A stretch of DNA of 64,000 nt from Polytrichum commune (Eukaryota; Streptophyta; Polytrichopsida; Polytrichales; Polytrichaceae): NCBI GenBank assembly GCA_950295325.1, contig OX485803.1, positions 6,884,001 through 6,948,000 on the forward strand, given 5' to 3'. This document shows positions 19,204 through 58,547 of this stretch, in pieces. Position 1 is the first letter of the stretch; each line of letters starts with the position of its first letter. The translations under genes and the position numbers were made by a program. The notes below the pieces were generated by a model. The model saw nothing but the letters and a program-made list of their open reading frames with translations, ran no database searches and was not told the DNA's origin.

Positions 19204-19313
19204 TGATAAGCATATGGTTGGCTGAGAGAGACCACAAGATCCAAAAGCACAAGATGCAAGTTATTGCGATTAATGTGATCTCTTGCCTCGTCCCAGCCAA
19301 CCATGTGTTTAGC
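19204..19313 (+). ncRNA. miRNA-like hairpin, family N, locus 1
   Basis: The 5' arm contains CATATGGTTGGCTGAGAG continuing AGAC; the 3' arm contains CAGCCAACCATGTG, pairing 14 bp with one G:U. Pairing resumes after an internal loop (AAGATC with GATCTCTT), and the terminal part is about 25-30 nt. The 22-nt 5'-arm core is identical at 38.65 and 57.97 kb, while the 3' arms differ. This is the conservation pattern of a MIRNA family. No expression evidence; a decayed MITE remains possible. Confidence 0.5.
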
Positions 19314-19366
19314 AGGAGAGGAAGATATAACAAAATCGTCAAGTCCATTGCAGTCCTCGGCACCTG

Positions 19367-19391
19367 CACACACACACACACACACACACAA
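19367..19391. repeat. (CA)n microsatellite
   Basis: Uninterrupted CA repeats of about 25 bp. Read on the minus strand they create an artificial VCVCV stretch in a 150-codon frame. Confidence 0.9.
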
Positions 19392-19807
19392 ATACATGCA
19401 GCCCAACAGAACTGGGAAGCAGCGAGCAGGCGCATCGCACAATAATGAAGACTCTGAGCTCCCTTTCAAGTTTACAGGTAAGTGGACTCTTACCTCCATG
19501 TGCACTCTGCATGTGAAGACCGGCTCTCTTAAGTTGAGTGAGTCAAACTTGGCAACCCATTCATACAGTGTGTATGTTTGATTCTTTTTGGATGCCAATG
19601 ACCTTATATGTTCTTTTTTGGCTATGAACTAATATTGTTTCAATTGTCTCAATAAAAAAAAAGGTGCTGTATTAGGGGGGAAAACAATGCTTTGATTGAG
19701 AGTCAACTTTAAACGGCCATAAACGCATATTCTTACATATTGTTTCTTCATTGTGTATGTTTTGAAACTTTCTTCCCTTCTAATACATTAAAATTTGATG
19801 GAAAGTA

Positions 19808-20025
19808 CACGAAATATGATATTCAGTGTCACTTACTATTCAAAGTTACAAATCCTTATAATTTTATATTCATTTAAATTTCTATTAAGTAAAGATGCTA
19901 ATGTTCTATAATGTCCAAACAATCAATTCGGCTTTTGTTGGTAAAAAGTTATGAAATGTACAGTATACAATTACAACGTTGCGTAATTCCAAATAGCAAG
20001 TGACACTAAATATCATATTTAGTGT
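19808..20025. mobile_element. MITE, family H (TTAGTGT type)
   Basis: Terminal inverted repeats of about 40 bp: AAATATGATATTCAGTGTCA on the left and its near-complement TGACACTAAATATCATATTT on the right. The repeat end is itself partly palindromic (AAATAT/ATATTT). Non-coding. The target duplication is unclear. Confidence 0.65.
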
Positions 20026-21046
20026 GGTTATGTGGAAAAGTGAAGGTCCTTGAAAATGTGACAAAGGGCATACTTCCATGTGTTGGCTATCCCAACAAAG
20101 TAAATTAGACTTTATCAATGTGAGCAAAGTGGATGTTAAAGACTTTATATCTTGAGATTTTTGAAAAATGAAAATAAATCTCAAAATATGAAGAGTTTAT
20201 GTAGGGTTTGAGATATTGAGTATATACTTGCATGAAAAAATTAGCATGTAAATACAACAACCTCGGGCTCACAATAACATATTTCTACAAACGCTATTTT
20301 TTCCCAGATCAAATTAAAGTCAATCTTTGACTCGAGAAAAGGAGGCAGTCACTTGCCTCTTCTCAAACTTCAACTTCTCCCTAGAATTGTGCTAGCCCTC
20401 AATTCTCCTTACGGATGATAAACAAGTACACCTCTACGCTAAATGAAGGGTCAATTTACTATCATCTAATCATATTGTAAGTGTCTCTAATGCCCCTCTC
20501 CCACATAACTTTAGCTTAGCCTAAAAGTTCGTTCTAAGAACACGGCCTTCACACCATCGGCTCTATCTAATCCCAAGCCTAGTTGGCAAAGGATGTGGCA
20601 TGGTTTAAAAACGGAGGTTTCAAGCTTCAAGCACTGACCCTCCCATCGGTACCTAGACATGAGGCAACAATGTAGGACCTGTAAAAGTTTTGTGCTCCCG
20701 TCCTTGTGATTGGTTGCTTTTAGTCTTAACTATGAGGACACAAGGAGCTTCATTAACAAAAACCGATGGCAAGATAAATGAGTGGTAAGGCATTTGGGGA
20801 TGGGACGAAATCTATATGTCATTGCTTGGCAGATAAAACAATGAACATGTGTGAACGCCACTTAATTAAAACCTACTCAAAAATCCTTGAAGCAAGTTCT
20901 CTTAGGTGCATTGGGATAGCCGGGTGCCTCAGCTACAACCGAGAGCATTTTACCCGGTTTTTAGGAAAGACTTTGGTTATTTGGTAAAGCCATGTGAGGA
21001 TGGCCCTTAAGTTGGGTGGAGTTTGACCTTCCACGTGCATCCATGG
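20026..21046. other. Anonymous sequence
   Basis: No recognisable gene or repeat end. A 69-codon frame at 20778-20987 has no family features. Confidence 0.3.
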
Positions 21047-21207
21047 ATAGGCCAGCCACAACGGGGGGTCCAGCCGAGGCCCAGCCAACCCAGCCGGTGC
21101 GCCCCCCCCCCCCCGGAGTATACTCCAGCCATCCAGGTGGGAACCCGTGGGACAGTGTCCCTAGGCTAGCTGGGCCTTGGCTGGACCCCCGGTGTGGTTG
21201 ACCTAGG
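21047..21207. mobile_element. GC-rich foldback element
   Basis: The left arm (CCACAACGGGGGGTCCAGCC, then GAGGCCCAGCC) reappears as its complement on the right (GGGCCTTGGCTGGACCCCC, GGTGTGG), giving arms of about 40 bp. A C14 tract sits near the centre. It is GC-rich in AT-rich surroundings. No target duplication is evident. Confidence 0.6.
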
Positions 21208-21571
21208 AGTAGTCATCATTATATTCGGTAATTGGAGACTTTTTCGTGATTTTGAGACTACTTAAGGACATGTTTTCCAAATAAAGAACAAAGAAAACAC
21301 AAATCTATATTCAATGTGACTTAATAAAGCGATTCGCGTGGGCAAAATTGACCAATTTGACACAAATACATGTCATCACAATAAAAAATTGGACTAGATA
21401 TTAAATCATTTGCATTTAATTTGAGACATTTGAAAGTCTCCGATTAACGAATATAGTGATCTGGACACTGGACACCAGGATAAAGATTTTGACAATGGCC
21501 AGGTGTGTGGACTTGCTTATTGAGCCTTCAGAATTTCCTAGCATGCAACCATCCCATCCTCAATGCAAAAC

Positions 21572-22068
21572 CACGGGTAGATCACTTAGTGCATTTTAAA
21601 AACGACGTGCGGCATAATATAGAGAGGATTAAAATCATTTGAAATAAAAATTATAAAGGAATTCCAAATAATGAAGGGGCCATTAAATATAGACAATCCC
21701 ATTATAAGTAAGTTAGATGGACATAAAACGTGGGCCATTATTTTTTTGTAAAATTAATATAGGGGCTGAAGATAAGGATCCTAGAAGGTATGTTTAGTAT
21801 GGTATGTAAATGGGTTTAGGACTCACGGGGATGAATGATAATTGAGATTTCCGTCTGTCTAAAATTACTTAAAAGGAATATAGAGTACAAAAAATTGCAG
21901 TGACTTGGACAATATAAGTAATATAAGGGTGCAAACAAATGGGCCATTTTTGAAATTTAAGTAATTATAGGGAGGCTTTAATTCAACCCTTGAAGGTAAA
22001 TAGCCCCAAAACAAAAAACCCCCAGCCGCACGTGGTGCACAAAAATGCCTTAGAGTGATCTACCCGTG
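21572..22068. mobile_element. hAT-type MITE, family A, copy 1
   Basis: Ends CACGGGTAGATCACTT and GAGTGATCTACCCGTG are inverted repeats of 15-16 bp. An exact 8-bp duplication, TGCAAAAC, flanks the element (21564-21571, 22069-22076). The 497-bp interior has no coding capacity. Two further copies lie at 50715-51284 and 52724-53221. Confidence 0.88.
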
Positions 22069-22187
22069 TGCAAAACCCACATAATGGAAGATAGTTTTAA
22101 CCAATGTTGGGCACTTAACTGGATGAAAAGGTGAATTATGAGAAGGTTAATGGAGCATAAAAGATAACCTTATCCCCCATCAACTAT

Positions 22188-22450
22188 ACTAAATAGGATA
22201 TTTAGTGTTTAATTATATTTAATGTTGTTACCACGCTAACTTGCTCAACACTAACTTTCAATTTTTTGACAATTAGTGTTGGAAGATATGTTGGGATTCT
22301 CCTTTTATCATTGTTATTTTTTTTTGGGTCCATATCCTTACTGACACTAAATTCAAACATGTAACTTCCACATATTACCATAGTTGATATGTAGTGTTTG
22401 AGTTTACATTTAATGTTACTTACTTTCATAGTGTTATTGATATTTAGTGT
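22188..22450. mobile_element. MITE, family H
   Basis: The left end ACTAAATAGGATATTTAGTG and the right end GATATTTAGTGT are related to the ends of the 19.8-kb and 34.4-kb family H copies. The interior shares GCTCAACACTAA with the 34.4-kb copy. Boundaries are approximate. Confidence 0.5.
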
Positions 22451-22558
22451 ATGCATTCGTATTTAGTGTACCAAGATCAATCACCACGAGTAATCTTAAT
22501 CGCCTATGACAAAAAATTAATAATAACCCCACTCTTGCCCTCTTGGAAAAAAAAAGAA

Positions 22559-22841
22559 CTCCCTCCGTCCCAAAATGATTGTCCTACTTCCTGGATATTT
22601 TGGTCCCAAAATGATTATCCGGTTCATTTGCCCGGCTAGAAACTGAGCTCAAAGTCAAAGTATTTTCACACCAAACTTTCTATATCAAGAAGTCTTTCGA
22701 CGCCACAACTTTTGGAGGCATTTCGAAATAGTTGTTATTTTTTATTTTAAGAGTCATACTTACAACTACTCGGTCAATGGTCAATGGGTCTTAATCTCTC
22801 CAAAGTTAGAAACACGGACAATCATTTTGGGACGGAGAAAG
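22559..22841. mobile_element. Stowaway-type MITE (Tc1/mariner-related)
   Basis: The 5' end CTCCCTCCGTCCCAAAATGA and the complementary 3' end CATTTTGGGACGGAG are the classic plant Stowaway terminal repeat. TA follows the 3' end (22842-22843). The expected TA before the 5' end is mutated. 283 bp, non-coding. Confidence 0.85.
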
Positions 22842-22868
22842 TACATTTTTGGTGAAAGTTATCCAAGT

Positions 22869-23097
22869 CTACGTCCGGGGAGAACTGGCGGTTAGTTACA
22901 AATGAACTACTAGTTGAGTTTGAGAAATAATTGGTTGACGTTGGAGACTTCAAGAGAATTACCGACCATTCTAGAGGAATCTATAGAATATGCCTCAAAT
23001 GAATAAAGCAACACCGGAAGATGTCAACATGTAACCGGCTGGATTTAGAATCACTAGGATCTTGACCAACTATGCCCAAGAAACTTCCTGGGCACTT
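22869..23097. mobile_element. hAT-type MITE, family B, copy 3
   Basis: An exact 8-bp duplication, ATCCAAGT, flanks the element at 22861-22868 and 23098-23105, although the terminal repeats themselves have drifted. The interior has the family core (GTTAGTTACAAATGAAC, GATGTCAACATGTAACCGG). Confidence 0.82.
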
Positions 23098-23227
23098 ATC
23101 CAAGTGTTATATCCAAGCAATTTTGTTTTTGTTCTTAACCGCCACTTCTGGCTGTTTGGGTAATCGTGCTTACCTTTTCAGTTCCCATAGTTATCTGTGA
23201 TAACATCTTATAGGAATTTGTAGTAAT

Positions 23228-24501
23228 CAATGATGGCTAGGGTGAACCAGTAGGTACACTCGTACCTTCGGGGGATGAAGGCCTCGCGGATGACACTGAA
23301 AACTTCATCCTTCTTTATGGGGAAGCCCGCTTGACTACAAATCCCATATTGAGTGCACTTCGCCTTCAAGGTCTAAAATCCAATATATATGTGCACTTCC
23401 AATTAGTAAATAAGCAATTCATTGGGATTTCATTCCGGAAGTGAAACCATCAATGAAGCATGTAATCAACTTGGAGGTCAAATAAAATTACAAAATCCTC
23501 ATTAAAATTGAGATTATAATTTTTTTGACTTACCATTTGAAATTGTCTTTGTCATTCTAAAATGACACTTAAATTTAGTGTGCTGATTTAGTATGTATAT
23601 TTTATAATATTTTAATAACGCCGCCTACTTTCACAAGTATTCCTAAATAAATAAATAAATAAACTACTGGAATTAATTAATTAATTAAATGTAATTACTG
23701 GAATTAATTAATTAATTAAATTGCTGAAATGAATTACTGGAATGAATTGGTTCAGTTAATTAAACATTATAATTAATTAGTCTTACTTTATTTGGTAAGC
23801 ACACTTTTCTGATTTATTTGGGCTTAAAAAGGATTCATCAGAATTAATTAAACTTAATGACATTAAATCACACTTAATTGGTTTGAATGTGTATGAATAC
23901 TTGTGAAAGTAGGCGGCGTTATTAAAATATTATAAAATATACATACTAAATCAGCACACTAAATTTAAGTGTCATTTTAGAATGACAAAGACAATTTCAA
24001 ATGGTAAGTCAAAAAAATTATAACCTCAATGTTAATGAGGATTTTGTAATTTTATTTGACCTCCAAGTTGATTACATGCTTCATTGATGGTTTCACTTCC
24101 GGAATGAAATCCCAATGAATTGCTTATTTACTAATTGGAAGTGCACATATATATTGGATTTTAGACCTTGAAGGCGAAGTGCACTCAATATGGGATTTGT
24201 AGTCAAGCGGGCTTCCCCATAAAGAAGGATGAAGTTTTCAGTGTCATCCGCGAGGCCTTCATCCCCCGAAGGTACGAGTGTACCTGCTGGTTCACCCTAG
24301 CCAGCAGTTAGTTACAAATGAACCGGTTGAGTTTGAGAAATAACCAGTTGAAGTTGGAGGCTGCATGAGAATTACCGATCTTTTTTAGAGGAATTTATAG
24401 AATATACCCCATTTTAATAAAGGAAAACCGGAGGATGTCAACATGTAACCGGTTGGACTTGCAAACACTAGAATTATGCCCAAAAATCTCCCCGATCACT
24501 A
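23228..24501. mobile_element. hAT-type MITE, family B, copy 4, carrying a 1.07-kb palindrome
   Basis: The element starts CAATGAT and ends TCTCCCCGATCACTA. An exact 8-bp duplication, GTAGTAAT, flanks the whole (23220-23227, 24502-24509). Between the first 7 bp and AGCAGTTAGTTAC of a normal B element lies a large palindrome (23234-24303), which replaces about a dozen bases of the usual left end. At 1274 bp it is about six times the family length. Confidence 0.8.
23234..24303. repeat. Long near-perfect palindrome with captured exon-like sequence
   Basis: Two 409-bp arms (23234-23642 and 23895-24303) are complementary with only a handful of mismatches, around a 252-bp AT-rich spacer of AATTAATT and AAATAAAT repeats. 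The outer ~140 bp of each arm is GC-balanced. Read on the plus strand at 24165-24302 it is open for 46 codons (including KKDEVFSVIREAFIPRRY) and is preceded by TTTTAG, a possible splice acceptor. I do not recognise the protein. A transcript through this region would form a very long double-stranded hairpin. Confidence 0.85.
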
Positions 24502-24509
24502 GTAGTAAT

Positions 24510-27500
24510 CGGTCATTACCCTTTGGATACCCATGGTGATCCGTGCTTACCCTTATATATCTTAAGGATTATATAAAGGGTAACCTAATTAACCTTACCT
24601 AGGATAACCGTTAACGTTTTGAAGGATAACTGTTGACGTTTTGAAGGACAACTTTAACACTAATTGCTAGGGTTTAGGGTTTCACTCAATGTTGAATGTG
24701 GGAATTTCATGGATAAATTTTGAGGTTAGAAGGGGATTTATCCAAAGGATCTTGAAACATGGAAAATGAGTTATTTCGAAAGAAAAAAATGGGCATGAAT
24801 GATCTTTTGAAATTTTAAATCTAAAGCAATTGATGAAAGGGATGCACAAGAAAAGGCCATCTTTTATTCCATCAAAAGAACTCCGCTTTTACATGAACAC
24901 CCAAAATAATTCACTTTTACCAAAATAAACATCATTGATGTTCATGCAAAGTTTGCTTTGGAGTGGCAACCATTGAGTTGAGTCAACACCCTCACATGAT
25001 CTCCCAACACAACAAAAACATGACTACTTCCCACTTTGATAGTTTTCTACACATTCTAGTCATCTTCGAATTGCATGAACCAAGTACCTATGGGTGAATA
25101 TCTATGTTGGCTTGATGTTTTGTAGTTATTTTTTGATTGCAAATGAATGAGCTAGGTGGGGCTAATGTAGGGGAAAAATCATCAATCGACCAAGAAATGG
25201 TTACTTGGGAAGTTAGGGGTTAAATGCCCAACATTGTTTTCAACCCCTAAACGCTTCTAGAGACTAGCATGTTCACACTAATTGTGTAGTCTCTCTTTAT
25301 ATTGGATCACGGATGATATTGATCTTCATTAAACTCTTTCCAATTGTTATTCTGTGTTCATATGTCAAGAATGTGTTGCAAGACAACTAGCTCTCAATAA
25401 CTACCCAACACTCACATTCCCAAATATATATTTACGTTGTACAATTTTGAAATATTGTATCTATGAGAGAACCATAAACCGGGTTCCAAAAGAGCTGTTG
25501 GGATTACACTTCAACTATTTCAGTACTAGCATTGGTCAAGCCTCATCTTAATTTGAAGATAGATTGGAGGCTATGAAAATATAATTGTGTTGAGCCGTAC
25601 CATGTGAATATGAAAGATCGTAGAATGTACATTGTACGAATGTTGCCCCATGTTACCACCTTGCATGGAAGATCGCCAAGCTTCGAAAAGTACATAGTAC
25701 ATCTCTAAACTAGACATTCAACTTAATTTTGTCCACAATAATCATCTTTGACTATGTGGAGTCAAAAAATAATTTAATTTCTAGCTCAAGTAGAGAAATA
25801 ATTTGAAAAGAGGTAGATTTGAGTTAGCCATTCAATTAAATGTGACATTTTAGGCCATAAGCTAGGAGTTATATAAAAAAATATTTTAAAAGGCCATAGT
25901 CTGATAGAAGTGGACATGATCTTTCATTCCCACACTGCTGTTGGAGAAGGTATCTAAGAGGAGTAGTCTAAGAGGAGAGGGGAGAGCCCAAACCTCCAAT
26001 ATCATAACTTTCTTGAATATTTTGTCTTTGAAAATGAATTGAATTAAATTATCAAATACAACTTGTGTCTTAGCACATTTGTGTGGGATAGATAATTGCA
26101 AGGCAATTGTCTGGAGCTCATAGCAACTTAAGTGAATTCAAGGTGTTTATACTGGATTGCAAGTCGTGTATCTCCTTCTTTGATTTATAATCAATTGTAA
26201 TATCTCAAGTTTGCAAGGAGTGATTCTTTTGTCATAAGTACTAACTCACATAGTCAATAATCATTGAGAGATTGCCTAATTGAACTCTCATTGTATGACC
26301 ACACTATTGTCAGTGATGAAAGAAATTGAGAGATTCGTGACTCGGAGAAGCAAGTTAGTGGGTTGGTGCGGGACTGGTAATCGAACGTCTCCAGCGGGAG
26401 TGATTTACAGGAGTGGAAAACAAACTCAGGGAGACAAGAGACTCTGTGAATAAGTCTGAGGTAGTGAGAATTGAACGGAGCCACGGGCAATAGTCAGAAC
26501 TGCTCACTGAGGGTAGGGGACTAACATTATTCAATTATCACATAGGTTAACTTCGATGGTGAAACTCAAGTAGATTACCATTACCGTTTGTGCCATGATC
26601 TAAGTTGAGAGGGAATTGAAGACATTGTTGGCCTAACAATTGGCATACCCCCTCACTTTGAGCAATTGTTTGGTGTCATTGTAAGATGTTGTGGGAAATT
26701 TCATGCCTCAAGGATAAGCGGCAGTGAACAATGAGTCTTAGAAGAGGAAGAAACAATAGTCTTTGTTTAACAATTTTGAGCCATTGGTATTCTCCCATCA
26801 TTCCCCCGTAGGGAGGGAAGGGACTAGCTAGATGAGACCCTAGGTTGTGAGAGCAAAGAAGAGACGGAGAAGATGAATAGTTTTGAAGCCTAAATCTCGA
26901 TTGATGGACACAATGATAACTTTGACCAAAACCAGGTAAAAAACCATTGCCGCACAATATAATGAAACAATCATTTTTTAAGGAAAATGGAAAATCACGA
27001 AAGGATAACTGCACTGCCATTTTCAAGTTACATCAAAAGGCTAATTAATTCAAGATTATTGACAACACCAAAGTGCCCTTTAACTTTGGTAAAGAGACTA
27101 AAATCGAATACTACATGCAAGACAAGTAACTATGATTGTGCCTTTGCTTGAGCACCGCATGAGGCTCAATTATAATGAATTCAATGCCAGACAATTGCAT
27201 GGGTAAATAGTGTGAGATTGAGTGACCGTCACAATTGCATGTACTAACATTGAGAGATTTTGAAGTTTTTACCTTTAAATCATCACCTAATTGTCAATTC
27301 AAACCCGAAATGATATGAAATAACCATGTATTTTCCTTAAACAAATTTATTTGAGACACTTGGATGATACACAAATCACTTTTTAAGTATTCCCTAAGTA
27401 TTTCCATGGGTTTCTTTGTAACCAAAATCCAAACAACAAACTCACATAAATAGCCTTGCAATCACTGGGTGGCAACCATAGTAAGTTACACAAGACGCTT

Positions 27501-28030: not shown

Positions 28031-29388
28031 GAAGAAGGTAACCCCCTCCCCCATACAATTAGCTTACCGCACCATCACATCCCCATTTTAATAAGTGATC
28101 ATTGTCCCTGGCTTTAGATAGTCGAGCTTTAGGTTTGACATACAAGATATCATATTTGATTCTAGTGAGCTTGTCCTTGGACAATGTGAGATTGCCATTC
28201 AACTCACTAACCAAGGTAATCTTGTAGAGTTTGGATCCATTCACTTCAACAAATCACAATATAGAGAGTTGTAATGGATTTCCTTCATGCTCATCTAAAG
28301 CATGTCTTAATTCATATTCAATGCTTGATACCATTGTCACTAAATGTCATCAAATACTATAAGCTCAACATGAATGTCTTCTGCTCGGACTAGGTTCATT
28401 GAACCTATATGGTTCATTAATATTTTCCGCACTTCCAAGAACGTGATTAGAATCACATTCTTTCTCCTCCCCCATTTCTCTATAAAGTTGTGCCTCCATG
28501 TGTCTCTCATGCTCCCAAGGAGTTGTCCACCAGCATCTAGGCAAGGTCTTCATCGGCTTCATCCTTAGTTGTGGACATATTGCTTGTGTGTCAACAAAGC
28601 CCTCATGTAGTGTTGCCACAAATCGCTCATTTGTCAAAATACTCGTGTAAATCCCAAATTTGCAAAAGGGACATTTCCATCAAGCTCAAGGTAAGACCAA
28701 ATGTGAGTTTATTTATTATGATCTTTATTGAAACTTTGACCCTTAGGATCAACCTCACATTATGCAATTCTAGCCAATGTACCAACACTTTCTACTAGAT
28801 CACAACCATCATATGTCCTCTTGTTTTGTATCAGACCTCCAACTTTACTAAAGAATACTTCAAAAACATTAAAACCTACAATACTCACTGGTACTCGTAA
28901 ATGAGAAGACCAATCCCTAAACAATTTAACAAGAAACACTACATAGTGGCATGAAATTTGAACATGAACATAAAGGTCTTTCCCCCTTTCATCCTTAACC
29001 CTAAATCTTAGGAATAAATGTGGTTCACATATTGGATGAAATATTATTTGGAGCTCTTGTAGATTACACTTCATTATAATTGACTACAGAACTAAAGGTA
29101 GAATGGTAACTACGATTACATAAATAATACGCCTAGTATATTTACAAAATTAGAATAAAGAATAAAGAATACCCGTACCTTATGTATATTTTGCAACCCC
29201 TAGGCATAATCAATACCCTTTTTGTGCACCCACATGGGCCATATTGAGTGCATCATCCCCTTTCAAATGTCATCCTCTGATGACTCAGTCGATGTTATGT
29301 GACGATTCTAGGGGGTGACAGTGTGAGAAATTCAATGCTACGGGTGTAGGAGCACATGGAAGGAGGAAATGGTGGTGGGGGAGAGGAG
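28031..29388. other. Anonymous sequence with one longer minus-strand frame
   Basis: A 104-codon frame at 28760-29074 (minus) has a protein-like composition (RFRVKDERGKDLYVHVQI) but no recognisable family and no supporting splice context. No other feature seen. Confidence 0.3.
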
Positions 29389-29597
29389 CAGTGATCGGGG
29401 AGATTTTTGGACATAATTAATCAGTTGAGATCCTAGTGTTTGCAAGTCCAACCGATTACATATTGACATCCTCCGGTTTTCCTTTATTAAATTGAAGTAT
29501 ATTCTATAAATTCCTCTAAAATGATCAGTAATTTTCCTACAGTCTCCAACTTCAACCGATTCATTTGTAACTAACTGCCGGTTCTCCCCGATCATTG
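29389..29597. mobile_element. hAT-type MITE, family B, copy 5 (inverse), best-preserved ends
   Basis: Ends CAGTGATCGGGGAGA and TCTCCCCGATCATTG are near-perfect inverted repeats. An exact 8-bp duplication, GAGAGGAG, flanks the 209-bp element (29381-29388, 29598-29605). This copy defines the family boundaries used for the others. Confidence 0.9.
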
Positions 29598-30001
29598 GAG
29601 AGGAGGAGGTGATAAGTCCCCAATGACTTCTTTCTACACATGGTTCTACTCCAGTGGCTACTGTTCTAGTACACTCAACCATGACACCTCTTACCATATG
29701 GAACATCAAACATGAACCCCTTGACTCTAAGACCCAAACGAGCAGGCCATCTGTGGAGGTGACAGAAGAAGGAGTTGTAATTGTTTTTGAAGAATATAGT
29801 AGGAGGAAAAGGCAGACAAGCACAAGTTATCCTACTCGGCGTTAAGGACCACAATTTCATTGCGGCCTTATCCAACGAAAAAGAGAAAGACCTTGTTCAT
29901 TGTAAGAGATAGGTTTCGAAACAAGACATCATGTTACTACACTCTTGTGAAATCCGAGAAATTGGGTATGGTGGGCGACTACAATGCCAGGAAGTCTAAG
30001 G

Positions 30002-30338: not shown

Positions 30339-30357
30339 GAAAAAATATTAAAAAAGT

Positions 30358-34791: not shown

Positions 34792-34807
34792 AGTTAATTC
34801 CCTCCCA

Positions 34808-35443: not shown

Positions 35444-37038
35444 AACTGGTTAGCAAAAGTCTTTGGACATGACGCCTTGTTCTACAAAATGAATTAGTAA
35501 TCCTACGGAGTTATCATAAAATTACAAGAAATTTTGCATAAGATCATATAGTTGCAACAAACATGTAGCACAACATTCATACCCAAGAATGTCAATCAAA
35601 AAATTAACCAAAAATGAGACACATGATATGGGGTGTACGATTCTTTATGCAAAAAGTGAAGTTGTCCTTTATTTACTATGGAAATAGAATCAATTTAACC
35701 TTCAGAATCAATTTGATAGCTAGCAAGCACAACCACAAAGCCCTTATAAGCATGTATGGCCACCTTTTGCTTTATAAACATCAACTGCTCTTTCAAGCAT
35801 AGACATAATCAACTTCCTCACAATAGTAATCTCAATGCCATACCAAATTTCCTGTAGTTTTTTCCCACAAATCCTTTTTGTTAGTGGGTTTCTTCTCAAA
35901 CATTCTCATACGACGATCTACTTCATTCCAAAGGTGTTCTATAGGATTTAGGTCAGGTGATTGAGCCGGATGCCAGATAAGTTGAAATTTTTGTGCTAGC
36001 AACCAATCTGTAACATACTTAGAAGTATGTTTGGGGTCATTGTCATGTTGGAAAATGACATTCTCCTCTCCTAAATCATGCATGTGTATAGTGTTCATAA
36101 GCTCCATCTCCAAAACTTCACGATAAACATTGCCAACTCCCTCCCAACTCATGCATCCCCAAACCATAATACTACCCCCCCCCCTGGCCGAATTTGACAG
36201 TAGGTTGCACATGTCGGTCCAAAATACGCTCTCCACTCCAACAATATTGCCGTCCATCTGAGCCAAAAAAATTGAATTTTGACTCATCCAACAAAACCAC
36301 AATAACTCCAGTCCAACTAAGTCGCATGTCTGCCCATGAATATCAAAGTGCCTTGTGCTTTCTGGTCAATAATGGCTTCTTTGTCTTCACACATGCTTTC
36401 AATCCTTGTCTCCGAAGACTCTTTCTAGCCTTATCATCACTCAAATCCAGTCCTTGAGATCACATTTCTTTACCCACTGCTGCAGCTATATCATTAGATG
36501 GATCAAGTAACATCCTTACAACCTCACGATCAACACGTTCATCAAGAATTCAAGGTCTTCCATCCGAATGTGCATCTCTCAAATCACCTCTCATAGTGAA
36601 CCTTCTCACTCTATCATGGTAGGTGCTTCGAGAAATCCCTAACACTATTGAAATTTTAGAGTACGAATTCCCTCTTATGCATTTGAAGAACCAACTTTTG
36701 CTCATCAAGAGACCTTCAGGGAGCCATAGCTAATAAGCTGTAATATCTCTCAAGCTCTTTAAATTTCTAAATGCAGGAAGTCTCAATTTGTGGAGGTTCT
36801 TTGTTAAGATTTTTTGGATGCACAAGTTTTGTGCATATTGAATTGGACACCCCTGGATGACACATTTCCGATTGCTTCACTTGCAGGTGGCTCAATTTTA
36901 ACACCCATACACTCTCTTGACTTCCATCTATCTTTAATATCTTATTTAGCTTAAAAAATCAACTCTATACCAAAGTCAACAATTGTCAATGCTAATTCCA
37001 GATTGCCATTACTATCCGAAGACTTTTGCTAACCACTC
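35444..37038 (-). mobile_element. Tc1-type transposon, copy 2
   Basis: Inverted ends share TGGTTAGCAAAAGTCTT (left from 35444, complement AAGACTTTTGCTAACCA on the right). TA flanks both sides (35442-35443, 37039-37040). The 1595-bp length fits a full Tc1-type element. The transposase inside runs on the minus strand and is broken. Confidence 0.82.
35744..36727 (-). pseudogene. Tc1-type DD34E transposase pseudogene
   Basis: Read from 36727 downward, the protein begins MAP then stop then RSLDEQKLVLQMHKRE, with HTH-region remnants after. The first catalytic Asp lies in DESKFNFFGSDGRQYCW (about 36290-36240). A run of G at about 36176-36185 shifts the frame, and SIMVWGCMSWEGVG follows. FQHDNDPKHTS and QSPDLNPIEHLWNEVDRRM hold the second Asp and the Glu with exactly 34 residues between them. 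A further shift near 35850 leads to the C-terminus KAKGGHTC and a stop at 35744. At least two frameshifts and several stops make it inactive. Confidence 0.88.
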
Positions 37039-38650
37039 TACGTGGTGTTAACACTATAACACTTATCATGGGTAGCATAGACAATTTGCAACACTTACAT
37101 GAATAACACTTATGTGACTTTGGAATTTAAAACTATAACACTTATATAAATAAAGGAAGAATTTACATAAGATATGAACGTCATCATACATCAAAGTGTA
37201 ATGAAAGAACGGATCTATGATAAGCTGATGAGATTTTTGTGCACGCCAAGATCTTATTTCCTTTTGAAGTGTTCAAATGCTCTCAATGAGAAGCGTAACA
37301 TCGGTAGGTATTTGTTCCAAAAATTGTTTTAAGGTCAGCAACGCACTTTCAACATTCTTGAATCCTTCACTATCCACCATCACATCACCAATTCGCACAT
37401 TGTCCAACTTCTACAATGGATTGTCAACTACATCATCTCTTTCATCAACCATGGGTGTCAACTTCAATAATATATAAGAGCTGATCTCATGTACAGTCAT
37501 AGTAGATCCAGTTTCACTCCTGCAGATATGAATGTTAACATATACATATCTCACCACTATCTCACCTCTCACCACCACCCGTCCACTGTGTAACACAATC
37601 TTGTAGGCTTACATCGATGTTCGTAGAAGTTTTATAATCTGTTACGTGATATGGGCAGCATTATCGCCAGATGATTGCCAATGTAAACGGCGACAAGGAA
37701 ATTATAATCAACATTTCTTTCTGCAAGTTCCATTTCTTTCTGAACGTTGTGTTTCATTATTGTTTCAAGAATCCTGAAATGATACTCTTTCTACTTTTGC
37801 GCTGCAAAAACCTCGCAAGCTACACCTGGTTACACACTTCTATGTTAATGCTTTCTCTGCCTGTACAGGTCGATTGCATTATGTGATCCTGTCACCAGAA
37901 CCCAATAACCTTATAAACGGCACTTCGCAGAGCGCATTGATTCCAAAGTGGCTGGCTACAGGGATTGGCTCGCAGGAGATTGAGGGCAATAGTTAAGACC
38001 TGGACAAAAGGCGACAAAAGTGTTTATAAGCAGCCGAAGAGCACTTTTACAAGACAACACTTTGTTATTGACAAGAAAAAGCGCGAGACATCCGACATAA
38101 GAGCCACTTCTTATTGAAGCATATTGCTTGCTGGTCACAACAAACTTACATTCGAGAGACACGCCCGTGGGCTGCTATTGTTTGTTGGTAAGCCAATCCA
38201 GAGACAAAAGGGATATTCTATTACAAATAAGAGAACAATCTCTTACTACTGAGGCACGTCTAATAGTACGCCTGGCACCGTTTACAGACTCCTCTACAGC
38301 TTCAAAAATGTCCAGCATCATGGAGAATAACACAAGCCTGGCTTCGCTTACAACGCCGAGGAGTCGTATCCATTCAAAAAGTGTCGTAGAGCACTCCACC
38401 GCCACCAGCTCTTATCGCATGACATCCTCGCAACCATACACATAATCAAAACAGGATCCAAGGTGAAATCAAAGTGCCAGAGACGTTCACATACGAGGGC
38501 GACACCGATGCTAGACACAGATAGTAAGCCTCCTCTAACCAAAACTGAACAACCAAGAAGTTTCATAGGATGGGGGTAGAACCTTACCACAATGCCCTTC
38601 ATGTTAGGATCCTCGCTCCCCTCTCTCTCTCTATCTCTCTCTCCCTCTCC
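37039..38650. other. Anonymous, GC-balanced region upstream of hairpin locus 2
   Basis: Low repeat content and more balanced base composition than the surroundings, with frames of up to 105 codons but no recognisable domain. It could belong to a non-coding primary transcript or a gene I do not recognise. Confidence 0.3.
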
Positions 38651-38755
38651 CTCCTGTTAAGCATATGGTTGGCTGAGAGAGACAACAAGAGACGATGACA
38701 ACAGCCTCGACGTACTCTGGTTGCCTCTCCCAGCCCCCCATTTGTGTAGCAAGAG
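38651..38755 (+). ncRNA. miRNA-like hairpin, family N, locus 2
   Basis: The 5' arm CATATGGTTGGCTGAGAG, continuing AGACAACAAGAG, pairs with the 3' arm CTCTGGTTGCCTCTCCCAGC, continuing CCCCCATTTGTG: about 31 paired positions with six mismatches and a loop near 25 nt. The 5' arm matches locus 1 over almost 30 nt, whereas the 3' arm differs from locus 1 but keeps complementarity. A CT-rich tract immediately precedes it. Expression is unknown. Confidence 0.55.
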
Positions 38756-40050
38756 GGAGTAAACACGCCGAAGCCCGCGTGCAGCTAAACCTGGAAGCTC
38801 CAGGAGCTTGCCCTCAGCATCCTACAATCAACAATGCCGCCTGCAGTAGAATCAGCAATGCTCCACTACTGTAGAATCAACAATGCCCTACTGCGGACTA
38901 AACCATGCAGCGGGTGAGATGCAAGACGGATGAGAGAGAGAGCCTCGATACACCAAGGATAGGGTTATATACACCAAGGATCCCTTGGTTGGCCCTTGCC
39001 CTTCAGGGCGGGACAAAGGAGGGCTTGGACCCCTCCCGGAGGAGGGAGGAGGAGGCAGGGGAGTCTGGGCCACTTCACACACGAGGCTGAGAGCCCGGAC
39101 TTGGACGCTTTCACACTTGGACTATTTCCAAATATTGTTCTCCCTCTTTAGTATGACACGTTTAGGAAACGCACAAAAAAATCGTATAATCAAGGTGCCG
39201 CCTTCTCATTAATATGACAAATGGCATAGAGTTGTCGTATTATCGAGGGAATACGAAAACATAAGTAATATGTGCTTAAACGTATATACAATGAGGTTAA
39301 GCAATATAGATGGTATGACTTATAACTTATAACTCCAAACAAATACAAATGTTCTCAAAAACTCTTGAAATAGGAGTCCAAAGATCTTTGGTGTTGCCTA
39401 CGCAAGTTAGAAATTGTCATCTTATCTAAATTCCCTACTAACTTTTGAAAACTAATCATTTCACTAACACCAAATATAAAGAGTTCTCTAATGAGAAACT
39501 AAACAACAATGATGCATGACGTTTAGCATCAATATATTGGTGATACTATATCACCCATGTATAAGGCAACATACTAGGCAGGAGGCCACTCTAACCCTAA
39601 CCATGTCCATTCTACGCAAGTAACTTAATTATCATTAAGTTCTCAATGATAAGTGAAGTTTCCAAGTAGTTCCCAAATGAATATGGATGTATTTTAGATG
39701 TACATAACATAGATGAAAGGAATTTTAGCATTAACAACCTCTTTGATATGACAAAACAGAGATTCTAAATGTCGAATTATCGAGTGTCGTATTCGGATAA
39801 AAGAGAGCGTCTTGAACTAAAAAGTTTGGTTGCGCAAAAATGTGGAATAATATTGAGGGTGTTGTATAATCAAGTGTTGTATAATCATGTTAGATTATAC
39901 CACCTCTGGGAGGTAGGTCTAACACAAAATTGGGAGACCATGGCAGTCCAAAATCTCACAATCACTGGTTTATTTTTATTTTATAATGTGTGAGGACCCG
40001 CATGAATAGAAAATCATTGAAATACCATTTGGTTGAGAGCCTAGTCACAT
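38756..40050. other. Anonymous sequence with fragments of families J and K
   Basis: GGGCCACTTCACACACGAGG (about 39067) is a family J end. CCACCTCTGGGAGGTAGG to GGGAGACCATGG (about 39897-39943) is a decayed relative of the 30.36-kb hairpin. No gene seen. Confidence 0.4.
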
Positions 40051-43489: not shown

Positions 43490-44501
43490 TTAGTAATTGG
43501 TCCGGTTACCCCCATTCTTCAACACATTGTCAATTCTTCGTGGGATGCTCTCATAAAGCGTCATGCAATCTTATTCACTGAAATTGGGATACACTGAACA
43601 CACATGCTCCCACAATTCTTGGTAACCTCTTGGAGGTGTCATAAATTCATTCAAGCACCCTTTGAGAAATGTCCATAAGTGTTCAATGGGATCCAAATCC
43701 AAAAATTATTTAGGTCATTGAAGGAGTTGAAATGATTGTGATGCCAACCATTCTTGCATGATCTTGCTTGTGTGCTTGGGATCATTATCATGTTGAAAGA
43801 TCAACCTACTTGGATCCAATTTGTAATTCTGCATAGTGGACCACAAGAAAATTTCTAAAATAAATTTATACAAATGCCTATGCATCCTACCTTCAATTCC
43901 ATACCAAGCTTCCAGCCTAAAACCCCTCATGCATCCCCAAATTATCATTGATCCACCATCATGCCTCATGCTCTGATGGACATGTTGAGGTCCAACGCGT
44001 TCTCTAGCTCCAATCCAACACCATGACCTTTCATTTTGAGCTAAACCCATTTATCTTTGTCTCGTCAGTGAAAATCACGCGTTTCCAATTATCAATGGTC
44101 CGATTCTCATACCTTTGAGCAAACCTCAAGTGAGAACATGTTTACGACTTATAAATGACTTCCTTTGCTGCATTTGTGCAACCAATCCAACCTCTCTCAA
44201 TGCATGCCTCACGGTGATGTCAGACAACAATATACCTATTTCAGACAGAAGTTGTTTTGATGTCGCAAAATGAGTTCCAAGTCGACCTTCAGTAACAAAA
44301 ATGACACAACACCTCTTTTCTCGGTCTGGAAGAAGCTTTGGATGCCATCCTCTTTGTCTCTCCAAATCGCCCCCTACATCCTTCCTCATATGCGCTACAA
44401 AAGATTGGCACATGCCCACTAAAGCAACAACTTTGCGAGTAAGCACTGTTTCTAAGTTGTACCAAAGCTCGGTGCTTTTGTTCTTGAGACGACAGAGGCA
44501 T
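43490..44501 (-). pseudogene. Tc1-type transposase pseudogene, copy 3
   Basis: Read downward from 44501: start MPLSSQEQKHRALVQLRNSA, a shift into DLERQRGWHPKLLPDREKR and ITVRHALREVGLVAQM (second HTH), then WKRVIFTDETKINGFSS with the first Asp, SMIIWGCMRGF, FQHDNDPKHTSKIMQEWL with the second Asp, a broken NPIEHLW region, and the C-terminus LYESIPRRIDNVLKNGG with a stop at 43490. At least four frameshifts are visible. It is a different subfamily from the copies at 14.6 and 35.4 kb. I could not define terminal repeats. Confidence 0.85.
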
Positions 44502-44859
44502 ACGGCTATGAATGATTCTACAAATTGCACCTCACATACTATGGAACCAAGGCTACACAATGCAAAAGAAATCTCACAATGTTCTCAACTACACAATGCA
44601 CACAAAGTTGTCAATGTTGGAAGAGTGGCGGCAAACAAAAGCAAAACTTGTAACCCTAACCACTTCGACATTTCCTATTTTAGAAACCTGGAACCCTTTT
44701 CACTTTCTGGTTTCATATTTATGCAATTGATTACTTGGACTCTTGCTTTGATCACTTGATCACTTTGTTTTCTTATTTGAATCAACTGACAATGGGAGCC
44801 GAAGTTGAGTTTGTGTAGAACGTACTCAATTTTTTTCATAAATGTATGTGGTTAGGTGT

Positions 44860-53221: not shown

Positions 53222-53520
53222 ACACAAAGGGGTGGTTTCTATTCAAGACAATAGCATAATTTCATGGCATCCCACATCATCAACCCAAATTCAAACCAAA
53301 TATTACAAAGGCAAGAGATTTAGGAATTTCTACAATGAGAACATCCTGCATCAACTAGAATTAGAGTGATCTACCCGTGACACAAAGGGGTGGTTTCTAT
53401 TCAAGACAATAGCATAATTTCATGGCATCCCACATCATCAACCCAAATTCAAACCAAATATTACAAAGGCAAGAGATTTAGGAATTTCTACAATGAGAAC
53501 ATCCTGCATCAACTAGAATT
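53203..53520 (+). repeat. Exact 158-bp tandem duplication spanning the end of a MITE
   Basis: The sequence from TTAGAGTGATCTACCCGTG, the last bases of family A copy 3, to CATCAACTAGAATT occurs twice in a row with period 158 bp and no difference that I can find (53203-53362, 53361-53520). The second copy therefore repeats a stray MITE terminus. Confidence 0.92.
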
Positions 53521-56500
53521 CGGAAATTCCAGACAGTTTGGGCAATGTGGCATCCAGGCTCTACGCAAGAATTTCAAGGTGTGTGAATAGTTTTTGAATT
53601 GTCATGATTTTGGCGTGCCATGCGTAGTACACCAATTCCTACATAAGAGGTGATGTGATCTATAAGATACATATAACAATGCAAGAATCATAATTAACAA
53701 TAGATTTGAATAGTAACAATACAAAGTACTGGACCGCAAAATAATTATTGGAATTTGCATTTGCAATATAAATTGCATTGCATGGAAGTACCTCATGGTT
53801 GTTTGGCCGATCCACATGCTAATTGTGCACTACACACACCGATGGAGACAAACCATTGCGGGAAAACGAGATGACCACAAGAGGAACATTCTTCGGGAAT
53901 TTATGTGGAATGATGCGGTTTAGTTCTTGTTCACATACAAGCACAATATTCCTTCAATGAAAAAACAAAAAGAAAATTAAGAAAGTATATAACAACCTGA
54001 AAACATAGTTGGAGCATCAAAAATTTGCAAGATACAATTAACACCTTGAACAAAGTCTCTATTATTCCCCCCAATTGCATGCAATATTAGCAATTAATGA
54101 TGCCACTACATTCAAGAGGGATCAAAATGAAAGTGTTGCCCAAGAGCAACGGTCTAGCCTCTTGTAACCAAAGCATACGTGGAAGCCATGTCATGGCATT
54201 CAAATAATTTGAATTGCAACACCCGATCACCCACGTGGAGGTTGTTGTCCATCAAGCTCTGCAAGTAGTAAAAAATTTGGCCCCCTTACAAGAATGCCTT
54301 GGCATTGGCCACGTGGGTGTGAACCTTCACTTTGAGTTTTTGCCTTCAAATTTTGTTAATGTAATGCAATAAATAAGCCCTCAGTCATGCAAGAGTTCCA
54401 AAAAGACCTCGCAAACATACATGCACAACCACACATATAACATATGGAATGGCAACAAAAACACATGTAAAGGCACATCAATACAACCCACACAATTTGG
54501 AATGTTAAATGTGGATAAACAACACAAAATTGCAACAAGATAGATATTTTGCCTTACCCCCCAGGTGGACTTTTCATTGGACACCTAAATGATGTGCGTG
54601 GGTCACTACGAAACCAAACCCTCTACATACGGGAACTTTGTAGGGAGAAACAAATGTATATGTATACATAATACGTATACATGCTAGAAAACAGAGTCAT
54701 GTATTTATACTAAGCTTTTCAATTGAATGCGACATATGCCTCCACACATATGCAAAATATAAATCATGATTTTGAATAGGCCCTTATTACATACGAAATA
54801 CACTTTCACTTTCCAATGAGAAAGTCATTGAACATGTTTTCATCCATAGCACGTAACCCAACATTTGCATCAAACAAACAAAGATTAGAGCACAGTAACT
54901 CAAACAACAATCTAGAGAGAAAAGCTCAGGGGAGCCCTTAAGCCATCCAAGAGCCTTTCGTTTTGTACAAACCTAGGAGCCAATTTGCAGACCGTAACAA
55001 GAATAGACAAGGCTCTTGAGGACTATAACTATACGACAACAATGGATAAACTGTGAATTGGATGAAATTACCGCACATGTTGCTAATTTTTCCTCTAAAC
55101 CTTAAGGGCCCCTTTTGTACATCCACCTTTACCTCAAAATTCTTGATAGTTCTTTTAAATATACACACTAAAGAAGAAGAATACCTCTCCCTTACGTATG
55201 CTATGTACAACAATGCCTCAAAATAATACCCCTATTCCAAATACTCCAAATCTAAAAGCAATAATCATGCCCTAAAAGCATTGAGTTCATCAGAATCTTT
55301 CGACCTTATTGGTCAATGGATAGTGCTAACGGCGTAACGCTATGAAAAAAATTTCATGTCAGTTAAGGAAGAAGGGTTATACACTACCTGGATGTAAATT
55401 TGGCACTGATCTCAACACCTAGAATCAATTGGGTTCCAACCTCATGAGCAATTTTGAAATCAGTTGAAGCACCAACCATTGTATCTTGTGAAGAGGCTGT
55501 GAAGAGTGGCCGAGAGGATGTTTGTGTTTGGGTTTGTATTTGTGATGTGTTTGTTCCTGACAAATCCTGATATGCCCAAACAATTTGCACTGAATGCTCC
55601 CTAGCTTGAACAACTATGAAAGGGCTACCTTCTACATTCAAAATCCTGTTGTGGGCTACATAGATTGCCCCTTTTTTGAAGGTGCGGTGGAGAGCAAAGC
55701 CTAGAATTTAGATTAGCAATACTGATGATACGTTGGGTAGGCATGCATAAATCATTCACTAAATTTGTGATGAATGGTAGTATGCATATAAATATGGTGG
55801 TAGTTTTGATGGTAGTTGCGGGTGCAAGCATGGTAAAGTGGACCAAAAAGGTGCTTCGGTATACTAGAACCATTATTTTTTTGGTCAAAGGCTTAAAAGT
55901 AGTAGCAAAGTTTGATTTGAAATTGAGTTTTTTTTATGATGACCTCTATTGTTGTGTTAAATACTCAAATGTAGAATATCAAGTTGAGATTTTCAATACT
56001 TAGCATCAAAAGTGATGCTCAAAAGCAAATGGTTGAGTCTAGTTTTGGACATAGATTTCATAACCCTAACTATTTTGAAGTTGGATTTTTTTAAAAAAAA
56101 TTCCTTGAATACATATTCTACTTGAGGGCATCATCACAAAACTTTGTAGAAAACCATCACTTACCGTAATTTTATCGTATTTTGAACAAAGTTGAAACAA
56201 TCACTTGTTCAATATCACCTACTTGCACACCACTTGCACCGTCTTCTAAAATATGTAGACTTTTCTTGGAATTTTTTTGGTCGTCATAAATTGCTTGGCT
56301 TTGTAGATAAATATGTTCTTAAAATGTCTATGATTTTTTTCTTCACAAAATTTAAAGTTAGTACATAAAATTGAATCACTTTGACTTAATAGTAGGCAAG
56401 CATCAGGAGTTGTCCACTTTACCATGATGCACCCTTGCATGCAATGACTATGACATTTCATTTCTTGCTTGAGTTGCGGGTTTGCCTATCGCATGTTTCG

Positions 56501-56845
56501 AGATCATTTTTCTAGAATTTGAAGAATAGAATTCAATGTTGGTTACGTTATCTTTGTGTGTGTACCATATGTGTATTGTTTGGAAAGAACTTGAATACTT
56601 ATGTTTTGATTAATTTATTTTTCCTCAATGTTTGGTTGTGAGTTGTGACTTAGTGAATTATGATATTTGGAGCAAGGGGGAAGTTGCATAAATTTACAAG
56701 TGACATCTCAAATTTTACGTCAATGATACATGTATTATTGCAATGACGTGGCCACGTGATGCTAGTAGTGAACTTACAAGGACATGATGATGGGGTGGAT
56801 TGGGGGTTTTAGTCAGGGAGGAATGTCCTTGTTAGGAATCCCAAG
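53521..56845. other. Anonymous sequence with weak minus-strand coding character
   Basis: A frame at 55386-55641 (minus, 85 codons; EGSPFIVVQAREHSVQIVWA) is flanked by a possible acceptor (CACAACAG) and donor (CCAG then GTAGTG). Another open stretch lies near 53850-53945 (minus). I recognise no family, and adjoining exons could not be linked. Confidence 0.3.
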
Positions 56846-57516
56846 CTAGGGTGGGTTCACATGGGGGTCCCAAGTCCCAAGTCCCACTCATGTTAGCAAG
56901 TCTCAACATGGAAACAAGAAAACGGTAGAACTGTGAGGCTCTGTCCATTACTATGAAAGACTACAATTGTAGATGTCCACTTTGCTCATGCCAATCCATG
57001 GCTATTCACTATACAAAACCTTCCTTGGATTTTGTGCACCTTCTTCTCAAATGCGGGTCAAGGATTGAAGCTACTCATTTATCACCCGAAATTTTTAAAA
57101 TGAATAATCAAGAATTGCCGAAATAACTATAGTTAACTAGATTTCTTCCAATGCATTCAACTTTCTCTCTGTCTCTAGAGAGAGAGAAAGAGAGAGAGAG
57201 AATCCACATTAAATAAAGTGGACCAAAAATAACAAGAACAAGTAACTTTCAAGTGTGAACGCAAAGTGGTTAGGAAATTTGCTCTTGAAACGAAGAAGTT
57301 GATGCATAGTCTCTGTCCTACTGACAGAGCCAACAAATTCCCAACTTGTGAGCCTCAAGTAACCACTAAAATATGGTTAATTATCATTAAAATCAACTCT
57401 TGATTATTTTATGGAAAAAAAATTCATGGGTCTAGCTTTTTGCTCGATCCAACTTTCAGCCTCAGCCTCACCTCCAAAAAGTAAGTATTGCCATGTAGGC
57501 ATGTTGCCATGTAAGG
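56846..57516. mobile_element. MITE, family I, copy 2, truncated and carrying a nested insertion
   Basis: Starts CTAGGGTGGGTTCACATGGG and follows copy 1 to CTCAACATGG, resumes at TTCCCAACTTGTGAGCCTCA, and loses similarity after GCCATGTAGGCATG. The right terminal repeat is missing. The foreign 414 bp at about 56918-57331 is bordered by AACAA on both sides, a possible 5-bp target duplication. Confidence 0.65.
57162..57201. repeat. Palindromic CT/AG microsatellite
   Basis: A TCTCTCTGTCTCT stretch meets AGAGAGAGAAAGAGAGAGAG, making a locally self-complementary tract within the insertion in the family I copy. Confidence 0.85.
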
Positions 57517-57873
57517 TTCTGTAGTCGACGCAGCACCGATCCTTCTGGAGTCTACGAAGCATCGATGTACTGCATCATCACAGGACTTAAGAGGCACACT
57601 CAAGATGTTTCGGTTAGGCCGTAACGACTTGGTCCCGTAATCATGTTCCCACTTCTGATGAATTATTGATCAACTATTGGTGCGATGATTGATCTTGTAA
57701 CATCGTTGCGGCTTCTGACTGTGTCAAGACGATGATTAGCTAGCTTATCTGGCTTCAACTTGGGCTCACGCTACTTCATCTTTGAATCGGATGCCTATGA
57801 TCTCACTTTTAGCTCCGGATCGGCATTATTGGCTCGAGATGTGGATTCCCATGTGGCAATCTAATCCTCGTTT

Positions 57874-57985
57874 CACACACCTGTGGATGGCTGAGACAGA
57901 CGATTTATCATTCTAGATCTCCCTTGTTCTGATGAGCTTGATTGAATGATCGATCTGGTCTCTCTCAGCCAACCATATGTGTGTG
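57874..57985 (-). ncRNA. miRNA-like hairpin, family N, locus 3a
   Basis: On the minus strand the 5' arm reads CACACATATGGTTGGCTGAG then AGAGACCAGATCGATCATTC. The 3' arm pairs with it over about 38 positions with around five mismatches or gaps, and the loop is about 30 nt. The 22-nt core is identical to loci 1 and 2 and again sits on the 5' arm. This is the best-paired of the set. Diverged copies follow at about 58205-58285 and 58481-58547. Confidence 0.55.
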
Positions 57986-58204
57986 TTGGTTTGAGGAAGG
58001 AGGCTAGGGCGCCAAACGAATGTCCAGGGACACATCTATTGCATCTACGTCGAATCATTTCACGGTTGTACGAGAGGGAAATGGTGAACGGATCAACCAA
58101 GGTTGTGTCGTGACCCCACTTCTATGATGATGTGCGGGGAAAATGGTCGTCCTGCAGGCACTTGTTGATATTGTTACCCCTCGGTAATGGATCCTCATTT
58201 TCAC

Positions 58205-58285
58205 AGATGTAACATAGATGGCTGAGAGGTATGACAGTTTCTACTCATCTTCATCGAGTCTCTCAGCCTTCATCCAATTGTGGAA
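58205..58285 (-). ncRNA. miRNA-like hairpin, family N, locus 3b (diverged)
   Basis: On the minus strand, GGATGAAGGCTGAGAGACTC (5' arm) faces the complement of GATGGCTGAGAGG (3' arm). It lies about 300 bp from locus 3a, in a unit that also shares TGATGATGTG and a GTCCTGCAGG/GTCTTGCGG string. Confidence 0.4.
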
Positions 58286-58480
58286 TGAGTCATGATTGCA
58301 CACGACATGAGCGGATCCACTGCACCAACGTTTTTGTAGTGGCATTTTGGTGATGATGTGGTGAGAAAATGCTCGTCTTGCGGATTGATGATGGATAGAT
58401 ATAAACGCCGACTCCTGATGGAGCAAGCGTGAATGCCTGCATTATCACCCTTTCTGGAGTGAGTCTTTCCTCATTTCAAA

Positions 58481-58547
58481 AATGCATAAATGACTGAAAG
58501 GAACGGGCTTTTCTGATCAACTTTGTCTCTCTGAGACTTCATTAGCG
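58481..58547 (-). ncRNA. miRNA-like hairpin, family N, locus 3c (strongly diverged)
   Basis: On the minus strand, GAAGTCTCAGAGAGACAAAG (5' arm) partly pairs with the complement of AAATGACTGAAAGGAAC. It is recognised mainly by its spacing from locus 3b and the AGAGAGAC core. Confidence 0.28.

Follow-up and report, generated by a model that had tools for sequence, protein, structure and literature searches.

Introduction

Small RNAs of mosses are known mainly from Physcomitrella. In other plants, large clustered microRNA gene (MIRNA) families frequently regulate gene families that evolve rapidly. The closest described system to the one reported here is MIR160, in which an invariant mature sequence is combined with a freer star and a diverged basal stem. 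We found a similar arrangement in a family of hairpins of the moss Polytrichum commune, three of which lie in a stretch of 64,000 nucleotides (nt) of contig OX485803.1 (positions 6,884,001 to 6,948,000), subsequently designated the window. MIR160 carries a known word, whereas the present family is larger and clustered.

Judged by its sequence features, this family is best read as a lineage-specific candidate MIRNA family of about 20 loci matching no Rfam family, and we consider this reading probable. Local duplication within a few chromosomal clusters would account for most of its growth. A transcript would be made from each locus, a Dicer-like enzyme would cut its foldback at the same place, and the resulting 20-21-nt small RNA would enter an Argonaute and lead to silencing of transcripts that contain a complementary site. 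All of these steps, from transcription and processing to loading and silencing, are ones that we infer. If the reading holds, another moss would show a large lineage-specific MIRNA expansion, with about 20 precursors, most of them clustered, that share an almost invariant word. The criteria applied are those of Meyers 2008 and Axtell and Meyers 2018.

Three window hairpins share a 22-nt word

The word CATATGGTTGGCTGAGAGAGAC is present in exact copies at 19211 (+), 38662 (+) and 57979-57958 (-) of the window, each within one arm of a strong foldback. The hairpins at 19.2, 38.7 and 57.9 kb are labelled W19, W38 and W57, while L numbers denote loci elsewhere in the genome.

19197..19319, strand not assigned: hairpin W19, candidate MIRNA precursor (fold, z -7.2)
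19211..19232, + strand: 22-nt conserved word in W19, its first 20-21 nt being the family-wide block (sequence matches)
19287..19307, + strand: opposite arm of W19, pairing with the word (pairing offsets; 3-mismatch word match at 19290-19307)
38648..38758, strand not assigned: hairpin W38 (fold, z -7.3)
38662..38683, + strand: 22-nt conserved word in W38 (sequence matches)
38723..38744, + strand: opposite arm of W38 (pairing offsets)
57869..57993, strand not assigned: hairpin W57 (fold, z -6.5)
57958..57979, - strand: 22-nt conserved word in W57 (sequence matches)
57880..57901, - strand: opposite arm of W57 (inverted repeat and pairing offsets)

Folding energies were -51.7 kcal/mol for W19 (123 nt), -53.8 kcal/mol for W38 (111 nt) and -50.1 kcal/mol for W57 (125 nt); none of the 200 dinucleotide shuffles generated per locus, from which the z-scores derive, was equally stable. 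An 18-mer of the word matched exactly at 19211-19228 (+), 38662-38679 (+) and 57962-57979 (-). With up to 3 mismatches there were 4 matches in the window as compared to 0.06 expected from shuffles, the fourth being the other arm of the 19.2-kb hairpin (19290-19307, 3 mismatches). Likewise, W19, W38 and W57, each matched on both strands, were the only matches above background when the window was searched with a model of the family; the next-best score was 12.2 bits (E 0.62).

These data bear out a preliminary description of the window, which had reported the same 22 nt at three loci, a foldback at each of them, and 3' arms that differ among the loci yet remain complementary; we find this complementarity kept for the most part. 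That description had also given the word a length of 22 nt with AGAC as its last letters. This is correct for all three window loci, but genome-wide only 20-21 nt are kept, the last bases vary and the AGAC tail recurs in only some of the other loci.

Genome-wide members are mostly clustered

The searched assembly comprises 407.8 Mb in 64 contigs, and contigs C1 to C7 (77.9, 70.3, 59.2, 59.1, 52.9, 44.7 and 42.1 Mb) account for nearly all of it. The 22-mer, with up to 3 mismatches, matched 25 places in the whole genome, while the reversed control matched none. Strong hairpins were formed by 16 of the 25 (z -4.6 to -9.1; core strand, 100 shuffles each): W19, W38, W57, L001, L003, L005, L006, L008, L009, L010, L012, L014, L015, L018, L019 and L026. 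They span 108-160 nt and hence are stem-loops below the approximately 300 nt allowed for plant MIRNA precursors, with the candidate on one arm.

Four weaker hairpins, L002, L004, L007 and L013, possess a downstream complementary arm scoring above 30 of 30 shuffles, with loops of ~12 to ~256 nt; the longest separation is that of L002, whose arms require a longer loop. Ordinary folding of the four gave z-scores of -3.1 for L004 and -1.7 for L013, and positive values for L002 and L007 over the spans folded. The arm search is lenient, as upstream stretches at W19 (score 28) and W38 (score 24) also beat 30 of 30 shuffles. The margin of L013 (score 22) is small, and the main reason to include this locus is its resemblance to L004 (87% over 806 bases). 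L036, also scoring 22, failed to beat all 30 shuffles, and no complementary arm was detected by this search at L011, L016, L017, L020 and L028. Altogether there are 20 hairpins, and 17 of them fall into three clusters:

C1 6.71-6.94 Mb: cluster of 5 hairpins, three of them in the window
C3 48.92-48.98 Mb: cluster of 4 hairpins
C3 50.29-50.87 Mb: cluster of 8 hairpins
C1 68.90 Mb, C1 54.19 Mb and C4 38.71 Mb: single hairpins, 1 each

We also employed a longer query of 622 bases, consisting of the L005 hairpin and ~480 upstream bases. It contains the hairpin and is thus not independent of the word. The eight other places at which its matches reached the word were seven known loci and L027. A hairpin-pattern search of the genome yielded 20 matches (control 2); 12 of these fell in known loci and the other 8 elsewhere. 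Searching with a variant word yielded 27 matches (control 1), some of them new and, among those examined, non-hairpin. The family may therefore have further members beyond the 20 hairpins.

The word is almost constant while the opposite arm diverges

Comparison of 1-kb stretches assigned the hairpins to the subfamilies {W19, L001}, {W38, L008}, {W57}, {L003}, {L009}, {L010}, {L005, L006, L014, L018} and {L012, L015, L019}. The last two are related and align at ~70%. Alignments among the others were limited to ~31-51 nt round the word, and W57 and L010 gave none at that threshold; the W19 and W38 groups share an additional weak 36-nt match of their 3' arms. Within subfamilies the close pairs are W19/L001 (93% over 591 bases) and W38/L008 (86% over 913). 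No element ends common to different subfamilies were seen in these 1-kb alignments.

Divergence was determined from an alignment of 15 hairpins, leaving out L026 and the four weaker hairpins, using 8 subfamily representatives. The core (columns 15-34) showed 7 differences in 560 pairwise comparisons, i.e. 0.01 per site, as compared to 187 in 553 (0.34) for the opposite arm, 0.64 and 0.66 for the basal arms and 0.60-0.66 for the loop-side neighbours. The opposite arm was more divergent than the core in all 28 pairs, which was never reached in 2000 column swaps. The constant block comprises columns 15 to 34 or 35, and columns 12 and 14 likewise vary rather little. A conserved block of 20-22 nt with freer star and loop, as described for plant MIRNAs, is thus present in loci that were themselves found by the word.

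Covariation was scored on 26 named pairs in the 15 aligned hairpins against shuffles that ignore relatedness, so the resulting figures are not probabilities. Paired cells amounted to 84.2% versus 77.4% in shuffles. Double-sided changes with the pair kept were counted in 26 cells, as opposed to 8.4 in shuffles (0 of 500 reaching this number) and 2-12 in slid versions of the pairing. Of these cells, 24 belong to the basal stem; within the core, it is mostly the opposite arm that departs. RNAalifold predicted 14 pairs, 7 of them with double changes. Duplexes with no more than 5 of 21 bases unpaired, the limit for plant MIRNAs, were formed by 14 of 16 hairpins on the core strand and by 15 of 16 on the opposite strand, with no limit set on bulge asymmetry; L012, L014 and L026 had 0 of 21 unpaired. 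The one-sided conservation with kept pairing that had been noticed in the window extends to the genome, with basal covariation in addition.

Comparison with MIR160 and a Stowaway-like element

Two families of the same genome served as controls. The miR160 word, taken from the tables of PMC1838911, matched 13 places with up to 3 mismatches, and five with at most 1 mismatch were examined. In three MIR160 hairpins the mature sequence differed at 0 of 63 positions (0.00), the star at 12 of 63 (0.19), the basal stem at 25 of 42 (0.60) and the loop side at 10 of 39 (0.26). Two examined matches were non-hairpin and lay inside paralogous open frames of 166 amino acids. We take these frames for ARF-like targets, although there was no match in Pfam or NCBIfam and, for L050, no match to a PDB sequence. 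A further control, miR166, yielded one locus only.

The second control is a Stowaway-like miniature inverted-repeat transposable element (MITE) at 22558-22843 of the window with the end CTCCCTCCGTCCCAAAATGATTGTCC, which looks like the Stowaway ends of angiosperms. A first look gave 435 genomic candidates; 40 scored copies, the window copy included, have at least 83% identity and are found on all of C1-C7. Among 9 copies, the arms differed by 0.07 and 0.09, the interior by 0.14 and the sequence outside by 0.71. The copies align end to end, and at either end 8 of the 9 are bordered by TA. This MITE shares with the hairpin family only the inverted repeat and the window, but is dispersed, has arms that diverge alike and carries TA flanks. 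It thereby behaves as the preliminary description had expected of a MITE, namely that both arms drift alike. Conversely, the hundreds of copies with shared ends that would have marked the hairpins themselves as a MITE were not encountered among their 25 genomic matches, and no ends were seen that are common to the subfamilies or would delimit an element. Thus, the hairpin family behaves more as MIR160 than as a MITE. The two controls suggest that, in one and the same genome, MIRNA families can be told from MITEs without sequencing reads.

Strand of the candidate product

The word had been placed on the 5' arm. This is true of the strand as read, but an inverted repeat presents the word or a near copy on the 5' arm in either reading, so the strand must come from other evidence. 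By folding energy, 11 of 15 hairpins were more stable on the opposite strand, and L001, L003, L009 and L010 on the core strand. Pairing of the 21-mer (columns 15-35) was better on the opposite strand in 9 of 16 hairpins; the core strand paired better in 4, and the two strands were equal in 3. The opposite-strand 21-mer, which is UCUCUCUCAGCCAACCAUAUG in the window loci, starts with U in 14 of 16 hairpins.

Strand is also suggested by the ratio of G:U to A.C oppositions. In the group formed by the C3 50.3-Mb cluster and the C1 68.9-Mb locus, the counts speak for the opposite strand (1:26 in 7 related loci), while they speak for the core strand in L003 and L009 (9:1) and are near balance in other loci. 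Counted as distinct column states, the contrast shrinks to 2:7 for the C3 50.3-Mb/C1 68.9-Mb group as against 7:3 for L003, L009 and L010 taken together; the window cluster gives 4:6.

Because of pairing and the 5' U, the opposite strand is likelier for most loci, whose product would then be a UCUCUCUCAGCCAACCAUAUG-type RNA from the 3' arm, on the strand opposite to that read in the preliminary description; for the window loci we favour neither strand. Its proposal of a mature small RNA from the 5'-arm word thus stands as to the conserved block, whereas the product may lie on the other strand. We see only a small chance that clusters use opposite strands, i.e. that L003 and L009 (C3 48.9 Mb) yield the word from the 5' arm and the C3 50.3-Mb group its complement from the 3' arm; perhaps the complement is also released from the 3' arm in most other clusters. 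If so, one duplicated hairpin would be the source of a pair of small RNAs complementary to each other, either of which could bind or cleave the other's precursor.

Targets and known families

Searching the genome with a 19-mer and up to 2 mismatches gave 30 matches (control 0): the 20 hairpins, and 10 places at which no convincing arm is seen. Of these ten, all but the one at C2:69.91 Mb were fetched. The best target candidate is L017 (C2:59.125 Mb), which keeps 19 of 19 letters in a CT-rich stretch without an arm and in which no domain was recognised. Pfam accepted no domain in the open frames at L021-L024, which correspond to L004, L002, L007 and L017; the Pfam search for targets covered these frames, and L011, L016 and L020 were inspected as translations of the complementary strand. 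L002, L004, L007 and L013 had also been considered as targets and were rejected, since they have complementary arms at other loop lengths.

In agreement with the earlier description, whose author could place the word in no plant microRNA family known to them, no Rfam 15 family exceeded its gathering threshold in the window. The 18 fetched loci and the region 57.7-58.7 kb gave sub-threshold matches only. Weak opposite-strand matches to MIR1507 were obtained for L012 (30.5 bits, E 0.0015) and L015 (27.7 bits, E 0.011); they are far below the gathering score of 73 and we read them as generic hairpin resemblance. The opposite-strand word starts with a CU-rich run similar to that of Physcomitrella miR473/miR477 in the tables of PMC1838911. 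However, the best ungapped identity is 11 bases, and shuffled queries did as well in 241 of 300 cases over all 59 table rows; none of these rows resembles the word beyond shuffled words. Short forms of the word retrieved no relevant open-access main text, in a search with miRBase and supplementary files outside its range.

Weighing of the interpretations

Several observations do not fit easily with a candidate MIRNA family. More than 5 bases of the duplex are unpaired on the core strand of L008 and L005 and on the opposite strand of L001. The open frames analysed contained no recognisable protein-coding target. Of two loci also found by the 622-base L005 query, L027 has lost its hairpin (z +0.9), whereas L030, in which no word is seen, retains a stretch that adjoins and takes in part of the 3' arm (81% over 69 bases). 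The loop side of MIR160 differs less (10 of 39) than that of the present family, and G:U versus A.C counts point to different strands in different clusters, unlike what is expected of a simple family. Moreover, the two related subfamilies (7 loci) show a weaker contrast, with 0.09 in the core, 0.18 in the opposite arm and 0.10 in the 5' basal arm. Finally, core conservation is partly built in, and the core figure alone proves little because the loci were chosen by their match to the word. The choice of loci did not select for the inequality of the arms, for retained pairing, or for the drop in constancy at columns 35-36, which lie within the 22 letters searched.

One alternative is that the hairpins are inverted-repeat loci of small interfering RNAs, diced to mixed small RNAs with no single mature product. 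We regard this as unlikely, yet deserving of some weight: there are several perfect or near-perfect duplexes (L012, L014, L026) and no target was found, and it gains some weight because the 622-base query is not independent of the word. A conserved block of 20-21 nt, however, is not what mixed dicing would select.

The word might instead be kept for a DNA-level or other RNA-level reason, such as a protein-binding site or a structured RNA. A few copies without hairpin, such as L017 with all 19 letters and no arm, would suit such a role, but the complementary arm in 20 of 25 loci and the covarying basal stems make it quite improbable.

Descent from a decayed, diverged family of foldback transposons (MITEs) appears very improbable. 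The strong inverted repeats of 108-160 nt, as well as mobile-element remains and other inverted repeats in the window, would agree with it. However, a MITE family should comprise many dispersed copies with common ends; here ~20 copies exist, 17 of them in three clusters, and homology does not extend to common ends between subfamilies. The arms moreover diverge unequally (0.01 versus 0.34), whereas those of the window MITE diverge equally in copies that run end to end between TA flanks.

An origin of the identical word in recent copying or gene conversion, with no selection involved, is hardly credible: it would account for the near-identical pairs W19/L001 and W38/L008, but not for an almost invariant 20-mer whose neighbouring columns differ by 0.60-0.66 per site across subfamilies, and word-sized conversion tracts in 8 subfamilies are implausible.

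Other features of the window and genome

Two further window segments recall the family:

58214..58268, - strand: possible decayed neighbour copy of W57 (GGCTGAGAG / CTCTCAGCC), not significant (z -0.93; 10.0 bits, E 2)
3369..3385, + strand: isolated partial word, probably chance, outside the family (no hairpin; weak model score)

The foldback at 58.2 kb was matched in stability by 31 of 200 shuffles, and another at 58.5 kb was not significant either (z +0.45). Beside W57, at 58383-58435, lies a short dispersed repeat with 8 similar places elsewhere in the genome. The partial word near 3370, CATTGGCTGAGAGAGAC, had been listed as an isolated core of the same kind. It forms no hairpin, has no complementary arm above shuffles and scores 8.8 bits (E 4.2) with the family model, and because of this it is probably a chance match and not a family member.

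The window also contains an inverted repeat with 433-nt arms, 97% complementary and 210 nt apart (23231-24306), a 61-nt tandem duplication with 98% identity (59231-59353) and fragments of a Tc1/mariner-like transposase (35832-36365 and 44126-44584; DDE_3 above and HTH_Tnp_Tc3_2 below the cut-off). A stretch resembling FRGIYRI...NRL(D/E)L(Q/R)TLGSQ is common to open frames at 29338-29826 of the window, 7524-7808 of L023 and 3548-3865 of L033; these frames probably represent a dispersed repeat, and the one in the window had no Pfam match. At 6975-9554 of L034, RNase H and PCIF1_WW domains occur in adjacent open frames, perhaps those of a mobile element of unusual make-up.

Three LEAFY (LFY) genes with the motif LDYLFDLYEQC were observed at C1:40.57, C7:8.64 and C1:62.30 Mb, besides a fourth, untyped match. 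All three carry the aspartate, which we place at LFY site 312. Aspartate marks type II LFY. According to passages of PMC6588583, LFY types are defined by sites 312, 345 and 387, type II genes are found primarily in mosses plus one liverwort, and both types are reported in non-Bryopsida mosses. From the aspartate form we conclude that the genome is that of a moss, and its seven large chromosomes would fit Polytrichopsida, even though both types might then be expected. Among the three LEAFY loci typed here, the aspartate form was the only one present.

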